The notes under the pieces are model-generated. The model worked only from the letters and a program-made list of their open reading frames with translations, ran no database searches and was not told the origin of the DNA. Position numbers and translations under genes: made by a program. Positions 1,104 to 28,026 of a DNA stretch of 34,235 nucleotides are shown here, one piece after another. The DNA comes from Leptospiraceae bacterium. Lineage in GTDB: Bacteria; Spirochaetota; Leptospiria; Leptospirales; Leptospiraceae. The stretch covers positions 1 to 34,235 of the forward strand of contig CANGZW010000031.1 in the NCBI GenBank assembly GCA_947458405.1, written 5' to 3'. Position 1 is the stretch's first letter. Each line of letters starts with the position of its first letter.

Positions 1104-1477
1104 TAATTTTTATAATATTAGGAGTTACTTTAGTTTATTCCTGTAAAAAAAAAGAAAAGGCTCCGGATAATTTTCTTAAAAAGTACGACACAAAAGAAAT
1201 TATAGGATTTTGGAAAGTAATCCCTTCTGAAAAAGAAACATATGTGCTATTTGAAGAAGATGGAAATGCAAAACTTTTTTTAGATAATATCCCAAGACAA
1301 ATTTTTTTATACTCTGATGCAAATGGGTTAAGATTTTTTTATAATGATAATGAAGAAACGCCTTTTGCCTATTTTTTGTTTACAGAAAAAAAAGAAAATA
1401 TTTGGACAGGACTATTTGAAAACCATTTAATTAGAATAGAAAAAATACTTACAAAGAAGAAATCAGTTTTAGAATAG
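1085..1477 (+). CDS. Small putative lipoprotein
   Basis: A 130-residue protein with a short basic start, a hydrophobic stretch at residues 6-19 and a lipobox-like LVYSC with Cys20. This fits a lipoprotein signal with the relaxed spirochaetal lipobox. The mature part begins with a Lys-rich linker. It contains a WKVIPSEKETYVLFEEDGNAKLF-like segment typical of small beta-barrel, lipocalin-like domains that compare a value with a threshold; I do not recognise a named family. The start overlaps the end of the AsmA-like gene. The 3' end overlaps the convergent lpxB gene by 29 bp, with no terminator between them. Confidence 0.7.
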   Translation: MLFKKIIIFIILGVTLVYSCKKKEKAPDNFLKKYDTKEIIGFWKVIPSEKETYVLFEEDGNAKLFLDNIPRQIFLYSDANGLRFFYNDNEETPFAYFLFTEKKENIWTGLFENHLIRIEKILTKKKSVLE

Positions 1478-2606
1478 CCATAGCTGATTTTTTAGAGGCA
1501 TCTCCAGTACCTAAGCCTTCTTTTACTAAACTTATATTATTAATCATTTCTTCTCTATATTTATCTTCTTTTAATATTTTATTAGTTTCGATAAAAATAT
1601 TATTTGGATTACATTCTGATTGTAAAAACTCTTTGCATATAAATTTTTCAGATAATATATTTACTAATCCAACATATGGTATTTGTAAAAGTCTTTTTCC
1701 TATAAAATGAGTTATAAAACTATTAATATATAGGATTATCATAGGTTTTTTAAAGTAGGCTACTTCTAATGTTGCAGTTCCTGATGCTAGTATAACTAAA
1801 TCTGCTTTTTCAATACTTCTTGCAGAATTATGAAATTGATATTGAATTTTCAAGTCATATTTTTCTGTATATTTTTTTATATTATTTTGAATGTATGAAT
1901 CTTCTTTATCATTTATATTGGGAATTATAAATTCTACATTTTTATACTCTTTAGAAATCAATACTGCTGTATCTAGCATCTTTTCTAAGAGTCTGGTTAT
2001 TTCCCCAGTTCTTGATCCCGGCATCAATGTAATAACTACAGAATCTTTTTCCGTAATGATTTCTTTGCCATTATCAAAATTTGTTTTCATTTTGCCCATT
2101 AATTGATGACCGACTACAACATTATCGATATTGTATTTGTCATAAATTTTTTTCTCAAATGGAAAAAGTAAAAGTATTAAATCTATATATTGTTTGATTT
2201 TAAAGATTCTATTAAATTTCCATGCCCAAATTTGAGGTGATACATAAAATATTATTTTTATATCTTTAATATCTTTCTTTAGCATTTTTGATAATTCTAA
2301 ATTAAAACCGGGATAATCAATTAAGATTGCTATTTTAACATTTTTTAATTTACATTCTTTTACTATATTTATCGCAATTTTTTTTAATGATCTATATTTT
2401 AATAGAGCTCCACTAAACCCCATTACATTTAACTCTTCAATATTTGATAATGAATGGAAACCTTGAGCAATCATATCGTTACCACCAATACCAAAATAAT
2501 TACAATTCAAATTATTATTTCTTAATTCAAAAAGGAGTTCACCACCTAGAGAATCACCGGAATGCTCTCCAGCAATCATTAAAATATTAGATTCATTGTT
2601 TATCAT
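1449..2606 (-). CDS. lpxB: Lipid-A-disaccharide synthase LpxB
   Basis: This 385-residue glycosyltransferase (GT19 family) joins UDP-2,3-diacylglucosamine and lipid X to make the lipid A disaccharide on the inner face of the inner membrane. The N-terminal motif AGEHSGDSLGG (residues 12-22) is the LpxB signature. Further family features are FGIGGNDM, the YVSPQIWAWKFNR segment, LMPGSRTGEI and the C-terminal LASGTATLEVA. The length is normal (E. coli about 382). Its ATG overlaps the lpxI stop by 4 bp (ATGA), so translation is coupled. Being next to lpxI, the enzyme that makes its lipid X substrate, confirms the role. Confidence 0.96.
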   Translation of the reverse strand: MINNESNILMIAGEHSGDSLGGELLFELRNNNLNCNYFGIGGNDMIAQGFHSLSNIEELNVMGFSGALLKYRSLKKIAINIVKECKLKNVKIAILIDYPGFNLELSKMLKKDIKDIKIIFYVSPQIWAWKFNRIFKIKQYIDLILLLFPFEKKIYDKYNIDNVVVGHQLMGKMKTNFDNGKEIITEKDSVVITLMPGSRTGEITRLLEKMLDTAVLISKEYKNVEFIIPNINDKEDSYIQNNIKKYTEKYDLKIQYQFHNSARSIEKADLVILASGTATLEVAYFKKPMIILYINSFITHFIGKRLLQIPYVGLVNILSEKFICKEFLQSECNPNNIFIETNKILKEDKYREEMINNISLVKEGLGTGDASKKSAMAILKLISSL

Positions 2607-3451
2607 AAAGTTATGTGCTTCTTATTTATTTCTTCCATATTTAGATTTTCTTCATAACTAAAAAAGTTTATTTTTAATTTATTGGCTTCTTCAATAAATT
2701 CTTTTGGATTTATGACAATTGTTTCTCCAGAACGAATTGCTAGTGTTTTATAATTATACTCAGTTAATTTTTGTAAGGTTTGACTTCCTACAACTGGTAA
2801 ATCAAATCTATCATCCTGACCTGGCTTTGAGCTTTTACATAAACAAGCTCCTTTCCCTCGGGATAAAATTCCACCCCTTTTAATTGTCTCATCAGTTCCT
2901 TCAATTGCTTCCAAGGCTAAGGTCATCTTATTGAGTACTACAACCGATTGTCCTACATCTAATCTCGCTAATTCTCGAGCAAGATCCATCCCATAAGTGA
3001 TATCTTCAATAGAATCCTTATCCATCTTTTTTTTAGTATAACGTCCAGGTTTTAAAATTAAATTGGATAAGAAAAATTTTTGAGAAAGTATTTCAATATT
3101 ATTTTTTGAAAATTCTTCTGCTGCAATTTCAAAGAATGTATAATCATTTTTATTTAGCATCTTAGCCATTAAAATAATTGATTTCAAATCAAATTTATAT
3201 GATTTTAATATTATATCTTTATTTACTTTTCCAAGTAATATTAAGCGATTAATATTATTTTTTTTACATGTTTTAATTACTTGGCCTATTTGAGTGATAT
3301 TAATTTGTATTACACGATCTGCATATTCTCCAGACCGAAATTCTGACTCATTTATCGCCAGAAAAAGAGGATCTTCTCCTTTTTGAATTGCCTCCTGCAT
3401 TGCAAGATGTGGGAGCTCTCCCCCCCCTGCAATAATTCCTATCCTTGACAA
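2603..3451 (-). CDS. lpxI: UDP-2,3-diacylglucosamine pyrophosphatase LpxI
   Basis: LpxI hydrolyses UDP-2,3-diacylglucosamine to lipid X and UMP; it replaces LpxH in many non-gammaproteobacterial diderms. The protein (282 residues) begins with the family motif IGIIAGGGELPHLA. It carries the C-terminal signature KSSKPGQDDRFDLPVVGSQT, where the Asp-Arg-x-Asp-Leu-Pro block is expected at the active site. The start is a TTG at 3451-3449, directly after the fmdB stop. A GGGAAG about 9 bases upstream inside the fmdB end can serve as ribosome-binding site. It lies second in an fmdB-lpxI-lpxB operon. Confidence 0.94.
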   Translation of the reverse strand: MSRIGIIAGGGELPHLAMQEAIQKGEDPLFLAINESEFRSGEYADRVIQINITQIGQVIKTCKKNNINRLILLGKVNKDIILKSYKFDLKSIILMAKMLNKNDYTFFEIAAEEFSKNNIEILSQKFFLSNLILKPGRYTKKKMDKDSIEDITYGMDLARELARLDVGQSVVVLNKMTLALEAIEGTDETIKRGGILSRGKGACLCKSSKPGQDDRFDLPVVGSQTLQKLTEYNYKTLAIRSGETIVINPKEFIEEANKLKINFFSYEENLNMEEINKKHITL

Positions 3452-17978: not shown

Positions 17979-19916
17979 ATGAAAGAAGCAAAAAGTGATA
18001 GACAAGTAGTTGATACCAGAACATCGGTTGAAGCTCTTTCAGAGACATTTAAAGCATCCAAATTAACAATTCGAATCAAGCTAATGGTGATTATTTCCTC
18101 CATCATCTTTCTTTCCCTATCAGCAATTATTTACTTAGCTACCTTCTTTTTCAAAAAAGATTCTGAAAATAGGATTAGGGAAAATGACTTACAAATAACC
18201 AATATTATTTCATTAAAGCTAAAGAGCGAATTTTTTTCATTAGCAAGTAATATGACACTCCTTGGGTTAAATCTTTCTGATAAATCTGATTGTGATGATC
18301 CAGAGCTTAGAAGTTTGTTTTTTAACAATGCAAAAGATGTACTATTTGTTGGGATTTATTTGGCAAAAGATGAATTTAACAATCCCAAATTTAGTTGCTT
18401 AAATCCCAATTTTTTAAATAAAGATTTTTCAACCCCCGAAAGTTATGAAACTATTATAAACTTCAATAAAGCCTATTTTAAAAAATCTATGCAGGGCTCT
18501 ACTCTCCTAAAAAACTTCAGTCCTCAAATAAAAGATGCTGTACTAGCCTATAGTTTTCCCTTCCAGAATAAAGGGGGTGACAAATCAATTATTGTATCTT
18601 TCCTTAAAGTATCAAATATTAAAGAAACTTTCAGCTCTAGTGGAGCTAGTACTACATTTTTAGTTGATGATGAAGGCGGTGTACTGATTCATCCTGATAA
18701 GAAAAAAATGATTGAGGGAGTAAATTTCTCCAACCTCGTAATTGTGAAATCCATGCTTACAAGTAAGTTAGACAATAGCCAACAGGGGTACTACGAAGAA
18801 GGTGTGGGTGACTCTATTGGGACTTATAATAAATTAGGTTTTACAGGTGGGGGAATTATCTCCACAATTCCTGAGTCAAAAGCCTTTGAAGAAGTTTACA
18901 ACCTTCAGAGAAGAAATATTTATCTCATGATTGCAGTATTAAATTTAACAATTATAATTGTATTTATATATTCTAAAACACTCACAGACCCTATTTTAAA
19001 ACTAGTTTTTGCCTCTGGAAAAATTGGAGAGGGTGATTACAGTGTTCGAATTGATCCCAAGTCAGGAGATGAGATTGGATTATTGACAAACTCATTCAAT
19101 CATATGAGTTTAGGCTTGGAAGAAAGAGAAAAATTAAAAGTATCTTTTGGTAAATTCGTAAACAAAGAATTAGCAGAAATGGCTATGAAGGGTGAAATTA
19201 AGCTCGGAGGAGAAAGAAAGTACTGTGCAATCTTTTTCTCGGATATCCGTAGTTTTACTTCCATTTCCGAAAAACTTGAACCGGAAGAAGTTGTGGAATT
19301 TCTAAACCAATACATGACCGAGATGGTAAATTGTGTTAATAAAACAGGTGGAATCGTAGATAAGTTCATCGGTGATGCTATTATGGCAACATGGGGTGCC
19401 TTAAACCCCCTTCCCAACGAAACAGAAGCAGCCGTTACAGCATCCTTAATGATGAGAACTGCCTTGCAGGAATTCAATGTAGGAAGGGGTGGTGATAAAA
19501 AGCCAATTATTAAAATTGGATGCGGGATAAACTCAGGATATGTAATTTCCGGTCAAATTGGATCGAATGAGAGACTAGAATACACTGTCATTGGGGATTC
19601 TGTAAACCTAGCGTCCCGTATTGAGTCTTTAAATAAACCATTCGGTTGCGATATTCTAATCTCACAAGATTCTTATGAACAAGTAAAAGATATTTTTAAA
19701 GTAGAAAAAATGCCGAGTATTAAAGTGAAAGGAAAAGAAGACCCTCAAACTATATACAGTGTTTTAGGAAGACTCGATGATCCAGATTGTCCTCCGGATA
19801 TGAGAACTTTAAGAAAAATACTCCATATAGATTTTGATGAGGAATCACTTCATCCTAAGAAAAAGAAAGATTCAGAAGATGGGGAAGACAAAGAAGTAAA
19901 ATATGAAATTCTTTAA
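17979..19916 (+). CDS. Membrane Cache-HAMP adenylyl cyclase (class III)
   Basis: A 645-residue sensor enzyme that makes cAMP. Membrane segment 1 lies at about 35-57, an extracytoplasmic sensor of about 250 residues follows (Cache-like, with FLVDDEGGVLIHPDKKK at 227-243), then segment 2 at about 314-331, a HAMP domain (333-390, ending GDEIGLLTNSFNHM) and the cyclase domain (410-600). Metal-binding Asp422 (FFSDIRSFT) and Asp466 (VDKFIGDAI), the purine-specifying pair Lys462 and Thr536, and the transition-state residues Asn543 and Arg547 (VNLASR) are all present. A Lys/Thr pair points to ATP as substrate. An acidic Lys/Glu tail follows. It overlaps the FecR gene by 14 bp. Confidence 0.93.
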   Translation: MKEAKSDRQVVDTRTSVEALSETFKASKLTIRIKLMVIISSIIFLSLSAIIYLATFFFKKDSENRIRENDLQITNIISLKLKSEFFSLASNMTLLGLNLSDKSDCDDPELRSLFFNNAKDVLFVGIYLAKDEFNNPKFSCLNPNFLNKDFSTPESYETIINFNKAYFKKSMQGSTLLKNFSPQIKDAVLAYSFPFQNKGGDKSIIVSFLKVSNIKETFSSSGASTTFLVDDEGGVLIHPDKKKMIEGVNFSNLVIVKSMLTSKLDNSQQGYYEEGVGDSIGTYNKLGFTGGGIISTIPESKAFEEVYNLQRRNIYLMIAVLNLTIIIVFIYSKTLTDPILKLVFASGKIGEGDYSVRIDPKSGDEIGLLTNSFNHMSLGLEEREKLKVSFGKFVNKELAEMAMKGEIKLGGERKYCAIFFSDIRSFTSISEKLEPEEVVEFLNQYMTEMVNCVNKTGGIVDKFIGDAIMATWGALNPLPNETEAAVTASLMMRTALQEFNVGRGGDKKPIIKIGCGINSGYVISGQIGSNERLEYTVIGDSVNLASRIESLNKPFGCDILISQDSYEQVKDIFKVEKMPSIKVKGKEDPQTIYSVLGRLDDPDCPPDMRTLRKILHIDFDEESLHPKKKKDSEDGEDKEVKYEIL

Positions 19917-21465
19917 AAAAAAAGATTTCTTAGTCGTACTAATTTTAGTAATCAACGCCGCTATTTTTTCGGGCTTATTTTATTACGATTTAAATAAGGA
20001 TTTATATACTAGAGACGAAGGCGATGAGATAGGTATTGTTACCTTTAAAATGAACTCAATCCAAAGAAAACCCGGCCAAAAAGTAGTTTGGAAGGACGTA
20101 TATGAAAGTTTTCCTCTAAACAATAAAGACATGATTCGAACGTATGAAGATTCGGATGCCGTCATCAAATTCAATGATGGTACCGAAGTTAAACTCGATG
20201 AAAATAGCTTAATTTACTTTGATTTTACAGACAAAAAACCTTCCATTAAGTTTGATAGCGGTAAGATCCAAGTTAATTCTACCAATGAAAATGTTTCTAT
20301 TACATCCGATGACAAAAAAATCGATATGGGTAAAGGGGATTTTAAACTCGGAAAAGAAAATGATAATGATTTGAATTTTGTTGTCAATTCCGGAAATGCA
20401 ACTATAGAATCTGGTGGAAAAAAAGCTACTATCAAAGAATCCCAACAAGCCAAAATTGGGAGTAAGGGTATGTCAGTTGAAGACTTACCCTTTGCCCTTA
20501 TTTCACCCGAAGACCAGTACAAATCTTTGACATTTAAAACTTCTACAATCAATTTTAAGTGGAAATCTAAAACAAATCTCCCCAATTCTTTCTTAGAAGT
20601 AAGCCGAAACAAGGATTTCTCCGATCTTGCATACCAAACAAAAGCCAATGGCGAAACTGCAACAGCCACACTTCCTCCTGCTACTTATTTTTGGAGAATG
20701 AAACTACAAAAAGGTGTTGGTGATTATGCATATAGTGATACTAGAAAATTACTAATTATACTAGATAGTGAATTAAAACTATTTAGCCCGGAACCCCTTG
20801 CAATTTTTCCCAAAACTACCAAGACAGTTAATTTTGCTTGGAGTAATTATCCGTTAAGTCAAAATTTTAAAATACAAATTAGTACCACTCCAGATTTTTC
20901 AAATGTGGCAAGGGATATTCCTCTCGGGACTAATACAATTCAAATACAAGATTTACCACCGGATGAATACTATTGGCGTGTTACAGTAACACCCAACTTA
21001 AAAGATGCAGTTCCGGCTGTAAGTACAACAAATAAGTTTACTATTTTACTTACTGATGAAATCCCAGAAGAAGTTCCTGTGTACAATAGAGATACGCTAG
21101 AAAAAAGCATGCTCCCCAATAAAGAAAAAATAACTTTTACAGACAAAACTCCTATTAAATTTCATTGGCAGGAAGTAGAAGGATCCACTGCATATGAGGT
21201 AAAAGTATTCAATGGAAATCATGCAGGGAAAAAAGAAATATTTAATTCCCGAACTAAAAAAAGTGAAGTTGTATTTAGCAAGTATGCTTCTTTAGAAGAA
21301 GGAAAGTTCTATTGGGAAGTGAATGCTATTGATCCATCTGGAAAGAAAAGAGAACCTGCCAGGGGTAGTTTTGAAATTGCAACTGATGATAGTCTAAAAA
21401 AATTAACACCAGATGATATAAAAATAATTTCTTCAGATACAATTTACAGGACAGAAAATGAGTAA
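19903..21465 (+). CDS. Membrane-anchored FecR-domain protein with Fn3-like repeats
   Basis: A 520-residue protein with one N-terminal membrane anchor (about 9-28) and a periplasmic part. Residues about 40-180 form a FecR domain: [46 protein letters not shown], and repeated beta-solenoid strands. Three Fn3-like domains follow at about 200-285, 290-365 and 400-495, each with a sheet ending in YFWRM, YYWRV or FYWEV. No FecI-type sigma factor lies nearby. The start overlaps the cyclase end by 14 bp and its stop overlaps the next gene by 8 bp, so the three are almost surely one operon. Confidence 0.85.
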
Positions 21466-22924
21466 ATTTTTATTTACTATTTCTTTTCTCTTGTTATGTA
21501 CTAATATCCAATTATTCGGTACCGAGCAGGGTTATATTGAATGGAAACCAATTAAAGGTGCATTTGGTTATAAACTTGAAATTAGAGATGAAAATAAAAA
21601 ATTAATTATTGAGGAAGTAGTCAATAATACAAGATATTTAATTAGAACTCCCACAGGAAAATATGATTTTAGAATTTCCCCCATGAATGTCTTCGAAAAA
21701 ACAACTGTTTGGTCCTATTGGAATCCATTAAATGTGGTTATTTCTAAAAGACCTTCCATTCTCTTGGCAGAGCTTTCTTTAGATATTTCTGAACTCAACA
21801 AACCAATCATTTTCAAAGGCAAAAACTTCTTAACAGATACTAAATTGAAATTTACATGGGGTAGTCGTACACTTAACGCTAAGTCTATAACTTTATCAGA
21901 CCCAGGAACACTCTCGGTGCTCTTAAGCCCTGAAAATGCAGTACAGGGAAAGTATGAACTGCTAATGGAAAATCCTGGAAACCGAATTCTATCCATTAAA
22001 AACTTTTTAAATTTAACTGATAATAATGAAGCTGATAGACTTGCCCGAGAAAAAGCAGAAAGAGAAAGACTAGAAGCTGAAAGGCTTGCCCGAGAAAAGG
22101 CAGAAAGGGATAGACTCGAAGCAGAACGATTAGCACGTGAAAAAGCTGAAAGAGACAGACTTGAAGCAGAAAGATTATCTAAAATGTCAGAGAAAGAGAG
22201 ACTCGAAGCAGAAAGATTGGCTAGAGAAAAAGCCGAGAGGGAAAGGCTCGAAGCTGAACGATTAGCACGAGAGAAAGCGGAGAGAGATAGGCTTGAGGCA
22301 GAACGATTAGCAAGAGAAAAAGCGGAGAGAGATAGACTTGAAGCTGAAAGATTAGCAAGAAGCAAATCTGATAGAGAAAGATTAGAAGCAGAAAGGCTAG
22401 AAGCGGAAAGATTGGCTCGAGAAAAAGCGGAACGGGATAGACTGGAAGCGGAAAGATTGGCCCGAGAAAAAGCAGAGCGGGATAGACTTGAAAGAGAAAG
22501 ACTCGCCCGGGAAAGAATGAAGGATAAAAAACAAGTAATCATTGATGGAATAGAAGACTCAAGTAACCGAGAATATCTGAATGTGGGCTCCTATGACCTA
22601 GATATGATTTTGAATGATTTTAAGAAGAGTTGTAGTCCCTCTAATCTATTGGAAACTCTTGTAGAAAAATGTTTCTCCAATCATTCTGTTTTAAAGATGG
22701 GGACAGTTCAAAAAGCTGACATCTTAAATTATTTATTATTGAATAGTGATAATTATAGGACTAGAATTAAATCCTATACTTATTTTATGAAAGAAGGATC
22801 CCCTCAAATGAAAGCAGCACTAGAAAAGATGATTAGCAAGGTAGATAAAACATCTTCAATAGATTTAGAAGAAAAAGAATTTATTGAAAAAGCTATTGAT
22901 TTTCAAAAAAAGAATTCTAAATAA
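21458..22924 (+). CDS. Exported protein with Fn3/IPT-like head and long ER/K repeat
   Basis: A 488-residue protein. A signal peptide ends near residue 21 (LFG-TEQ). An Fn3-like region (about 25-95, [17 protein letters not shown]) and a second beta domain resembling IPT/TIG (about 115-188) follow. Residues 193 to about 354 are some ten near-perfect copies of the 15-residue unit [15 protein letters not shown]. One copy is degenerate ([13 protein letters not shown]) and one five-residue partial copy is present. The C-terminal domain (about 360-488) is mostly helical and unrecognised. The repeat will be an alpha-helical rod, either a coiled coil or a single charged helix. The start overlaps the FecR gene by 8 bp. 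Confidence 0.82.
22034..22519 (+). repeat. 45-bp tandem repeat encoding the ER/K rod
   Basis: About ten 45-bp units run in frame, each giving [15 protein letters not shown] or a close variant. Synonymous positions differ between copies (for example GCCCGAGAA, GCACGTGAA, GCTAGAGAA), so the array is old or under selection on protein sequence rather than freshly expanded. The antisense strand gives a spurious Ser-rich frame. Confidence 0.93.
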
Positions 22925-23601: not shown

Positions 23602-24825
23602 ATGATACAAATACTTTGGAATTTTTTTGCATACTTAGGTGTTGGATATGTTAGAGATCCTAATGAACATAAACATATAGTTTTAGTAAACTCGTTATCA
23701 CTCTTTATTAGCTTTTTTACTACACTCATTTCTTTTCAAATGCTCTTCTTACCACTTCCAAAAATTATTTTCTATATTTCTCTTGTATATCCTTTTTTAC
23801 TTTTATACACTCTCCGATTAAATGCAAAAGGATTAATAGATAAAGCAAGATTTTTTCTAGTAGCACTGTCATACATTTATATTACATATGTTGTCTTTCT
23901 TCAAGGAAATCAAGCAAGTGCACATTTGTACTATCTGATTATTACATTAGGAATATTTTTTATATACCCCTACTCTAAAAGAAAAACAGGATATTATTTA
24001 ATTATATTTATTTTTTTAACATTTTGTTTTTTTGAATTATTTAATCACCTTCTCACTCCAATTATTTCTGTAAATGATGAACATTTATTAATCAGGATAA
24101 AATCGAATAATTATTCCTTTGCTATTTTGCTCATGGGTTTTTCTTTTTATATTCATACAATCTTTAAAAAAGCAGAACTTTCTCTACAACTTGAACATGA
24201 AAAATCAAACAAGCTACTTGAAAATATTTTACCCCTCTCAGTTATTCAAAAATTGAGAGACAATCCTGATTCAATTGCAGAAAAATTTGAAGAATGCACA
24301 GTTCTATTCAGCGATATCGTAGGGTTTACAGAAATGTCCCGTAGACTTCCTCCTCAGGATCTAGTTTCCCTTCTCAATGAAATATTTTCCTCCTTCGATG
24401 ATTTAGCTGAGAAGTACAAACTTGAAAAAATAAAAACTATAGGCGATGCTTATATGGTTGTGGGAGGACTCCCCGATAAAGAACCATTCCATGCTGAAAA
24501 AATTGCAGATTTTGCCTTGGATATGATCACTGCCATTCAATTATATAGAGAAAAATCGGGCTACCCCATTCAACTTCGAATTGGAATACATTCCGGTGCC
24601 GCTATTGCTGGTGTTATAGGAAAGAAAAAATTTATATATGATCTTTGGGGAGAAAGTGTAAATACCGCATCTAGAATGGAATCTCATGGAATTCCGGGAC
24701 AGATTCAAGTTTCTGAATCAACTTATGATAGATTAAAAAATAAATTTGTATTTATGGAAAGAGGTATTCTAGAAGTGAAGGGAATTGGAAAAATTAAAAG
24801 TTTTTTTCTAATTCAAAAAATTTAA
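23602..24825 (+). CDS. Polytopic-membrane adenylyl cyclase (class III)
   Basis: A 407-residue protein with about six membrane segments in its first 187 residues (for example 28-50, 54-72, 83-100, 108-124, 131-150 and 171-187), a short helical signalling linker (190-225, LSLQLEHEKSNKLLENILP), then the catalytic domain. Metal-binding Asp238 (VLFSDIVGFTEM) and Asp282 (KIKTIGDAYM), Lys278 and Asp347 (FIYDLWGESVN) for adenine, and Asn354 and Arg358 (VNTASR) are present. The Lys/Asp pair is the textbook ATP signature. The membrane part has no known sensor motif. The N-terminal TM design differs from the HAMP-type cyclase upstream. Confidence 0.93.
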   Translation: MIQILWNFFAYLGVGYVRDPNEHKHIVLVNSLSLFISFFTTLISFQMLFLPLPKIIFYISLVYPFLLLYTLRLNAKGLIDKARFFLVALSYIYITYVVFLQGNQASAHLYYLIITLGIFFIYPYSKRKTGYYLIIFIFLTFCFFELFNHLLTPIISVNDEHLLIRIKSNNYSFAILLMGFSFYIHTIFKKAELSLQLEHEKSNKLLENILPLSVIQKLRDNPDSIAEKFEECTVLFSDIVGFTEMSRRLPPQDLVSLLNEIFSSFDDLAEKYKLEKIKTIGDAYMVVGGLPDKEPFHAEKIADFALDMITAIQLYREKSGYPIQLRIGIHSGAAIAGVIGKKKFIYDLWGESVNTASRMESHGIPGQIQVSESTYDRLKNKFVFMERGILEVKGIGKIKSFFLIQKI

Positions 24826-26235: not shown

Positions 26236-26973
26236 TTATTTCCTATATAGGTCTTGGTTTTTATTTTTCAGTTCATTTAAGGATTTATTATTCAAGTCTT
26301 TTTGAATTACTAATGTATTTAGAATTTCCATCTTCTCTTTGAGGTAGGCTTCTATGATTCCTTTTTTTAATCCATTGGAGGTTACCAATACTTCTTCTCC
26401 TGCTTTTAAAATTTCAGTTTGTTCTAGTTTTCTGGAATTGCTAACTTCTACTTCCCCATCTTTTAAGAATAATCCCGAAGGAGCATTATCATTTTCTAAT
26501 TCAGTAGATTTTTCAGAAAAAAGAAACTCCGTTCCCCTAACTCCTGCATTTATGGAGGGAGAATAGAAATCCATAGATGTATTCCCTTCTTTGATTTTGT
26601 TAATTTTAGCAAATAATTCACCCACTTCTAGAAATATTGACACTGACTTTTTGCTCTCGTTATTTACTAAATTTTTTATTTGTATTTTTGTGTTCTTATT
26701 AATTCTAAATATTGCATCTGTTCCCAATTGAAGATCAGCAATTCCATTTTCTGTTTGAATTTCATCCTCTTTTGCGAGCATAGTTTTTGGTTTGAGAAGT
26801 TGTTTTTTTCCTTTACGAACTAAGTATGTTTCCCCATTTACAAAGCTAACAGCAATAGAAAAATCCTGACCAAGGAGAGAAGTGGTAAAAATAAATGTAA
26901 ATAGAATTATAAAGGTATTGATTAAATTTAATTTATGAATGATTAAGGGTTTGATAATTCCTGTTTTTAACAT
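26236..26973 (-). CDS. Exported FecR-domain protein
   Basis: A 245-residue protein with an extended N-terminal hydrophobic signal (about 18-35, NTFIILFTFIFTTSLLGQ). The FecR-type domain spans about 40-200: FVNGETYLVRKGKKQLLKP, DEIQTENGIADLQLGTDAIFRINKNTKIQI, the FLEVGELFAKI strand, and SPSINAGVRGTEFLF, the hallmark 'xxAGVRGTEF'. A Lys/Asn-rich helix ends it (about 210-245). These spirochaetal FecR proteins lack a sigma partner. It is upstream of and coupled to trpB2; ompL1 is upstream behind a terminator, so its promoter should lie in 26974-27025. Upstream sequence has no strong ribosome-binding site. Confidence 0.85.
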   Translation of the reverse strand: MLKTGIIKPLIIHKLNLINTFIILFTFIFTTSLLGQDFSIAVSFVNGETYLVRKGKKQLLKPKTMLAKEDEIQTENGIADLQLGTDAIFRINKNTKIQIKNLVNNESKKSVSIFLEVGELFAKINKIKEGNTSMDFYSPSINAGVRGTEFLFSEKSTELENDNAPSGLFLKDGEVEVSNSRKLEQTEILKAGEEVLVTSNGLKKGIIEAYLKEKMEILNTLVIQKDLNNKSLNELKNKNQDLYRK

Positions 26974-27072: not shown

Positions 27073-28026
27073 TTATAATTCGTGTTTGTATCCGAATCTA
27101 AAATAGTTACCAGCGACTGTTACTGGATATGCAGGGTAAGGAGCTAATGCCGCCCATCCACCTGATGATTTAGCCGCACCAGTTGCAGTTAAGGAACCAG
27201 AAACATGTGTTTCAACTTCAGCAAAGAAAAATCCTTTCTCTGAAATTCTTGTATGAGATCCAATAATATAACTAAATCCAATTCCATGACCTCTAAATAC
27301 AACGTCTTCATTTCGAACAGCTCCGCCAGATCCTGTAGCAGAGGTTCTAGGAAGTTCATAAATAACAGAAGTTGCACTTGATCCTAGTAAATCAGTTAAA
27401 AATTGTCCATCAACAGTTCCTTTTAATTGCCACATAGCATTGTAGTAATGTAAACCGGGAGCTACATAAAAAGCTGAGTTTTTTCCTAAATTTAATTTTA
27501 TACCATAATAAGCAGGAATAACTGCAGAACGAAAATTCCAGGTTACATCATAAAAATTATAACCAGCTATCGATGCAGTTGAGTGCCCACCAGAAATTTT
27601 TGTGTTAAGGCTTAATCCGACTCTGAAAAAGAAATTATCTCCGACATCTTTTTCATATCCAATTGTTAAACCACCACCAGTCATGGGTCCACCAGTTTTA
27701 GTATGAACGGCTCCACCTGTAACATTGCTAATTGTTTTTAATTTATTATCAGGATAAATTAAGTTTTGATCTTGGAGATATACCTCATTGGTTCCATCTC
27801 CATTCAAATCTCTGGAGACTACCCTACTGTTTCCAGCCAAACCATCTTTAGCGACTGTTCCCCCCAGACCATTAGGGTCAAAATTTAAAGAGCCCCCAAA
27901 TATCCATCTTGCTTTTCCTGTGTTTTTAAACGCACTTCCTTCTTCTTCCCCATTTGCAGAAATAGTTCCAATGCTAAGACCTATCGCTATGATGGCTGAA
28001 AGAAACTTAAAGTTTTTTTTATTCAT
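27073..28026 (-). CDS. ompL1: OmpL1-like outer-membrane porin
   Basis: A 317-residue beta-barrel precursor. The signal peptide runs to about residue 24 (ending GTISA), with cleavage near NGEEE. Blocks matching Leptospira OmpL1 as I remember it are LGGTVAKDGL, DNKLKTISNVTGG, MTGGGLTIGYE, KISGGHSTASIAGY, AVIPAYYGIKLNL, and the end YPAYPVTVAGNYFRFGYKHEL. A terminal hydrophobic/aromatic strand ending in Leu suits barrel assembly. OmpL1 is a surface-exposed porin of Leptospira. A strong GAGGGGAAA ribosome-binding site precedes the ATG. An unusually good promoter and a terminator flank the gene, so it is a highly expressed single-gene unit. Confidence 0.93.
   Translation of the reverse strand: MNKKNFKFLSAIIAIGLSIGTISANGEEEGSAFKNTGKARWIFGGSLNFDPNGLGGTVAKDGLAGNSRVVSRDLNGDGTNEVYLQDQNLIYPDNKLKTISNVTGGAVHTKTGGPMTGGGLTIGYEKDVGDNFFFRVGLSLNTKISGGHSTASIAGYNFYDVTWNFRSAVIPAYYGIKLNLGKNSAFYVAPGLHYYNAMWQLKGTVDGQFLTDLLGSSATSVIYELPRTSATGSGGAVRNEDVVFRGHGIGFSYIIGSHTRISEKGFFFAEVETHVSGSLTATGAAKSSGGWAALAPYPAYPVTVAGNYFRFGYKHEL

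Follow-up and report, generated by a model that had tools for sequence, protein, structure and literature searches.

A recurrent cyclase–FecR–Fn3/TIG gene module in spirochetes with a probable role in trans-envelope cAMP signaling

Three overlapping genes in the genome of a Leptospiraceae bacterium probably encode a single trans-envelope signaling module that ends in cAMP. They code for a class III adenylyl cyclase, a membrane-anchored FecR protein and an exported protein with an Fn3/TIG-like head, and they lie within the window, the 34,235-nucleotide stretch of contig C31 that we analyzed (host genome, 3.94 Mb in 198 contigs). The module offers a route, open to experimental test, by which the outer envelope could act on cAMP in the phylum that holds the agents of syphilis and leptospirosis.

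Layout of the operon and its proteins

The original prediction described three genes overlapping by 14 and 8 bp, which the open reading frame coordinates and the sequence bear out; all three lie on one strand. The features are as follows:

17979..19916 (+): adenylyl cyclase of class III, comprising a dCache-like periplasmic sensor, a HAMP domain and a catalytic domain (645 aa; Pfam HAMP and Guanylate_cyc; dCache_1 matches in the family)
18138..18917 (+): periplasmic sensor region, aa 54–313 (flanked by predicted TM helices; dCache_1 on homologues)
18972..19121 (+): HAMP domain, aa 332–381 (Pfam PF00672, E 1.7e-11)
19221..19751 (+): class III catalytic domain, aa 415–591 (Pfam PF00211; column conservation)
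19903..19916 (+): cyclase/FecR gene overlap, 14 bp (sequence)
19903..21465 (+): FecR protein with N-terminal TM anchor, periplasmic FecR domain and three Fn3-like domains (520 aa; Pfam PF04773; TM; Fn3 cross-matches)
20131..20397 (+): FecR domain, aa 77–165 (Pfam PF04773, E 2.9e-9)
20530..21432 (+): three Fn3-like domains, aa 210–308, 305–401 and 410–510 (profile cross-matches)
21458..21465 (+): FecR/third gene overlap, 8 bp (sequence)
21458..22924 (+): third protein with signal-peptide-like N terminus, Fn3 and TIG-like domains, charged helical rod and C-terminal helical domain (488 aa; AlphaFold model)
21533..21736 (+): Fn3-like domain, aa 26–93 (alignment, AlphaFold model, fold search)
21773..22018 (+): TIG/IPT-like domain, aa 106–187 (model; TIG matches on homologues)
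22022..22525 (+): ER/K-rich helical rod, aa 189–356 (model, alignment, repeat analysis)
22589..22915 (+): C-terminal helical domain, aa 378–486 (alignment, model)

The cyclase has TM-like segments at aa 35–53 and 314–332 (hydropathy) and retains all of its catalytic residues: the metal-binding aspartates (D422 and D466), the substrate pair (K462 and T536) and the transition-state residues (N543 and R547). Each of these sites is kept in at least 68 of 69 and in 13 of 13 relatives. The Lys/Thr pair suggests ATP as the substrate, and the product would be cAMP rather than cGMP. Of the Cache-HAMP architecture first assigned to this protein, the HAMP domain was recovered by Pfam and the Cache domain is likely for the family: among 29 homologous sensors, 17 match dCache_1 at E values down to 1e-9 (below the Pfam cut-off wherever cut-offs were shown), and the window protein itself is unmatched. 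In the host genome as a whole, Pfam PF00211 identifies 26 cyclases. Another class III cyclase gene of the window (23602–24825, +) lies 0.7 kb downstream of the operon and has no same-strand FecR neighbor; its product carries hydrophobic segments toward the N terminus.

The FecR domain of the second protein scores 37.7 bits against the PF04773 cut-off of 24, and PF04773 matches all 26 family members examined (E up to 0.001). The family profile also matches chain R of 6ovk, listed as a siderophore-interacting protein (E 0.0019). The TM helix (aa 9–27) and the cross-matches of the downstream domains to the Fn3 model of the third protein, together with weak Pfam and PDB Ig/Fn3 matches in the family, agree with the earlier description of a membrane-anchored FecR protein carrying three Fn3-like domains. 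The number of these domains varies between FecR proteins of the family. We rejected an assignment to the FecR anti-sigma regulator type, which has a cytoplasmic N-terminal domain: the TM helix starts near residue 9 and the conserved neighbor is a cyclase gene instead of a FecI sigma gene. The window also encodes another exported FecR-domain protein (245 aa; 26236–26973, −) in a gene adjoining that of an OmpL1-type porin (27073–28026).

The third protein has no Pfam match. Its AlphaFold model (mean pLDDT 75.9, pTM 0.33) has the Fn3/TIG head and long helical rod foreseen for an exported protein, and adds a C-terminal helical domain to that description. The rod is built of a 15-residue repeat (DNA period of 45 bp) and is modeled as a helix from residue 189 to 356, briefly broken at 242–244. 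Four cysteines are conserved in the C-terminal domain of relatives; the window protein has the first pair (C392 and C405) but not the second. The matches listed by a fold search were mostly Ig- and Fn3-like chains, consistent with the head, and were uninformative about the C-terminal domain. The head (aa 26–202) matches the NCBIfam model LIC11435 with an E value of 1.1e-31, under the model's curated cut-off, and such sub-cut-off matches of third-protein heads hint at the presence of the module in Leptospira.

The ER/K rod had been presented as a defining part of the trio, a view that comparison with relatives does not sustain. Among the relatives examined the rod occurs only in this genome and the spacers elsewhere are unrelated; relatives that share the C-terminal domain have a different repeat in some cases and a short linker in others. 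Other third proteins carry DUF5683 or a predicted barrel. The single relative whose barrel we modeled, from Alkalispirochaeta alkalica (L256), was predicted to have an Fn3-TIG head and an 8-strand barrel (mean pLDDT 81.0, pTM 0.51) that superimposes on OmpA with a Z score of 19.2 (rmsd 2.1, 158 residues). Among 93 distinct third proteins lacking the four-Cys domain, 61 have F, W or Y as their last residue, a feature shared by none of the 87 FecR proteins and by 95 of the 772 ORFs. Judged by sequence, the third proteins of many other relatives are predicted to end in an outer-membrane beta-barrel. The window protein was rejected as a barrel candidate: its C-terminal part is modeled as helical and its last residue is Lys.

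Recurrence and coevolution across the Spirochaetota

The module is spread over much of the Spirochaetota, and its recurrence across the phylum places the arrangement far beyond chance. We searched 61 genomes with each of the three proteins and annotated the 100 loci fetched with profiles. A FecR gene lies immediately downstream of the cyclase gene, on the same strand, in 90 of the 93 class-level loci with a family cyclase (gaps of −319 to +22 nt), and the Fn3/TIG third gene comes next in 61 of these 90. The original prediction had been staked beforehand on the co-occurrence of the trio in related genomes, and it survived this comparison. The three loci without the FecR neighbor correspond to a contig end (L180), one genome whose FecR gene lies on a different contig (L115) and a match to the end of the sensor profile only (L159). 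The third gene may be optional, because it is missing downstream in 29 of the 90 loci; in some of these an Fn3 gene lies beside the cyclase–FecR pair on the opposite strand. Comparison of locus neighborhoods revealed no fourth conserved gene, the neighbors being subfamily-specific. Elsewhere in the window, adjacent LpxB and LpxI genes for lipid A synthesis occupy 1449–3451 (−).

A second scan used a narrow sensor alignment against one genome per species (84,980 prokaryote species). The best 80 loci, which were kept, are nearly all labeled as spirochetes, including Treponema species and A. alkalica, and two are labeled just 'bacterium'. A FecR gene adjoins the cyclase gene in 76 of these best 80 loci, most commonly with an overlap of 17 or 20 nt; cyclase–FecR overlaps are mainly of 4–35 nt. 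The sensor profile is present in 112 of 247 Spirochaetota genomes and 61 of 125 genera (E 1e-40), in counts that overlap with those of the class-level and species scans and are not independent of them. Several paralogues of the module per genome are common. The host genome itself carries a second paralogous module (L081, C22:18000-31000) with a catalytic domain of the second lineage described below and a DUF5683-type third protein.

We also compared maximum-likelihood distances for the sensor, catalytic domain, FecR domain and third-protein head. Sensor distances correlated with those of FecR (r 0.80) and of the third protein (r 0.72), values that none of 1000 permutations among within-genome paralogues only could reach. 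The correlations were similar within the main catalytic lineage alone (0.78 and 0.77, respectively). The sensor correlated with its own catalytic domain at 0.18 overall and at 0.71 inside the main lineage. We discarded general domain shuffling as a reading of the 0.18 value, which comes mostly from the 13 loci of the second catalytic lineage.

Gene fusions and a change of output link the same partners. A 1596-aa open frame in a Treponemataceae-like genome (family inferred) joins cyclase and FecR (L277:3201-7991), either as a fusion or as a frameshift artefact, and one FecR protein (L120) ends in the Fn3 and four-Cys domains of the third protein. At another locus (L138:6850-9459) the same sensor is followed by an Hpt/HATPase kinase output in place of the cyclase and sits beside FecR and third genes. 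Since this sensor keeps FecR despite its histidine-kinase output, the sensor is the partner with which FecR groups, and these observations bind both FecR and the third protein to it rather than to cAMP itself. The congruent trees, fusions and output swap support what would be a functional unit with the sensor at its core. They also provide a natural experiment, in which one sensor–FecR–receptor unit would drive different outputs.

Related systems and the Treponema operon

A literature search retrieved no description of the dCache cyclase/FecR-Fn3/Fn3-TIG trio and, for Leptospira and Treponema, no report that connects FecR to adenylate cyclase. The earlier statement that no such system had been described was nonetheless too strong. 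The available part of a study of Campylobacterota describes a cluster of genes for a CHASE2 adenylate cyclase, a FecR-domain protein, a TPR protein and a phosphodiesterase, and proposes a single pathway for them (PMC9239204). Like the spirochete operon, this cluster groups a class III cyclase having a periplasmic sensor with a FecR-domain protein. It differs in having CHASE2 rather than dCache-HAMP, in the presence of the TPR protein and phosphodiesterase and in a FecR protein that is called outer-membrane, and the same part of the study mentions no Fn3-TIG third protein. Sinorhizobium meliloti provides a second parallel in the NsrA–CyaD1/D2/K–Clr system, where, in the portion of the report available, membrane cyclases and cAMP act downstream of a beta-barrel protein of the outer membrane (PMC13001267). 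Compared by description only, that system differs in its CHASE2 cyclases and names no FecR bridge. In the FecA-FecR-FecI system of E. coli, an inner-membrane-anchored periplasmic FecR is also signaled by an outer-membrane protein, FecA, from which it gets the ferric citrate signal (PMC8144685); there, the ferric citrate transporter serves as the outer-membrane partner, and a sigma factor takes the place of the cyclase as output. The trio is therefore new in detail, cyclase–FecR clustering being already known from Campylobacterota.

One of the operons belongs to a Treponema genome (G097) assembled as a single contig of 1,139,633 bp. All five Tp0483 peptides of PMC13181057 occur in the third gene of this operon, four at a constant offset of 47 and one at 45, and these peptides identify the genome as an apparent match to T. 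pallidum. Pfam found a single PF00211 cyclase and a single FecR domain in it, both inside the operon. TPASS_0484 is annotated as FecR (PMC5951579) and both TP0484 and TP0486 are listed in PMC2408589; by gene order, the operon cyclase would be TP0485. No match to the barrel profile was obtained for the third gene of this genome, and hhalign aligned only the head of its product (Fn3 domain and a short following stretch). Tp0483 and TP0484 share with the module the third-gene peptides and the FecR annotation and differ in how they have been described: Tp0483 is reported as a fibronectin-binding adhesin (PMC5421087), with no cyclase link found in the literature. The operon links this reported adhesin to signaling genes that include the sole PF00211 cyclase found in a small genome.

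A proposed route from the envelope to cAMP and its alternatives

In the mechanism that we propose, the third protein would act on the outer side of the periplasm, sensing or holding something there through its Fn3-TIG head and a variable C-terminal anchor. The latter is a putative outer-membrane beta-barrel in many relatives and, in the subfamily of the window protein, a spacer with a four-Cys domain. The head would dock on the FecR-Fn3 protein, which is predicted to bridge the periplasm from its anchor in the inner membrane and to contact the dCache sensor of the cyclase, whose HAMP domain would then control how fast cAMP is made. In this way FecR and the third protein could report the state of the envelope to the cyclase, as first suggested. 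We infer the physical contacts, outer-membrane location, direction of signaling and ligand of this module. More tentatively, the route could be a general outer-membrane-to-cAMP architecture of spirochetes, with a FecR-Fn3 bridge between a dCache cyclase and an Fn3-TIG barrel protein in the outer membrane. It would then include the only PF00211 cyclase of the T. pallidum-like genome and give Tp0483 the role of receptor subunit in a cAMP pathway.

Direct binding of small ligands is common among dCache domains. The sensor could likewise bind a metabolite and act as a stand-alone cyclase, with FecR and the third protein as envelope or adhesion proteins that are merely co-expressed. The fibronectin binding reported for Tp0483 (PMC5421087) and the loci that lack a downstream third gene fit this explanation. 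We consider it unlikely, however, as the sensor coevolves with FecR within genomes, is accompanied by FecR after the change of output and belongs to a set of proteins with both cyclase–FecR and FecR–third protein fusions.

It is rather improbable that the trans-envelope module works as a mechanical gauge, with the third protein and its variable spacer measuring inter-membrane distance or tension and FecR-Fn3 passing the strain to the cyclase. The combination of a conserved head and tail with unrelated spacers (ER/K helix, other repeats, short linkers) and the differing number of Fn3 domains in the arrays would suit such a device, but spacer length differs widely among close relatives and in many third proteins the predicted barrel directly follows the head. 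Regulated proteolysis of FecR, with the cyclase as a parallel output, has very little probability: E. coli FecR is processed in this way with RseP (PMC8144685) and the window protein is likewise of the FecR type, with one TM helix at its N terminus, but the approximately 8 residues that precede this helix leave little N-terminal cytoplasmic part to release.
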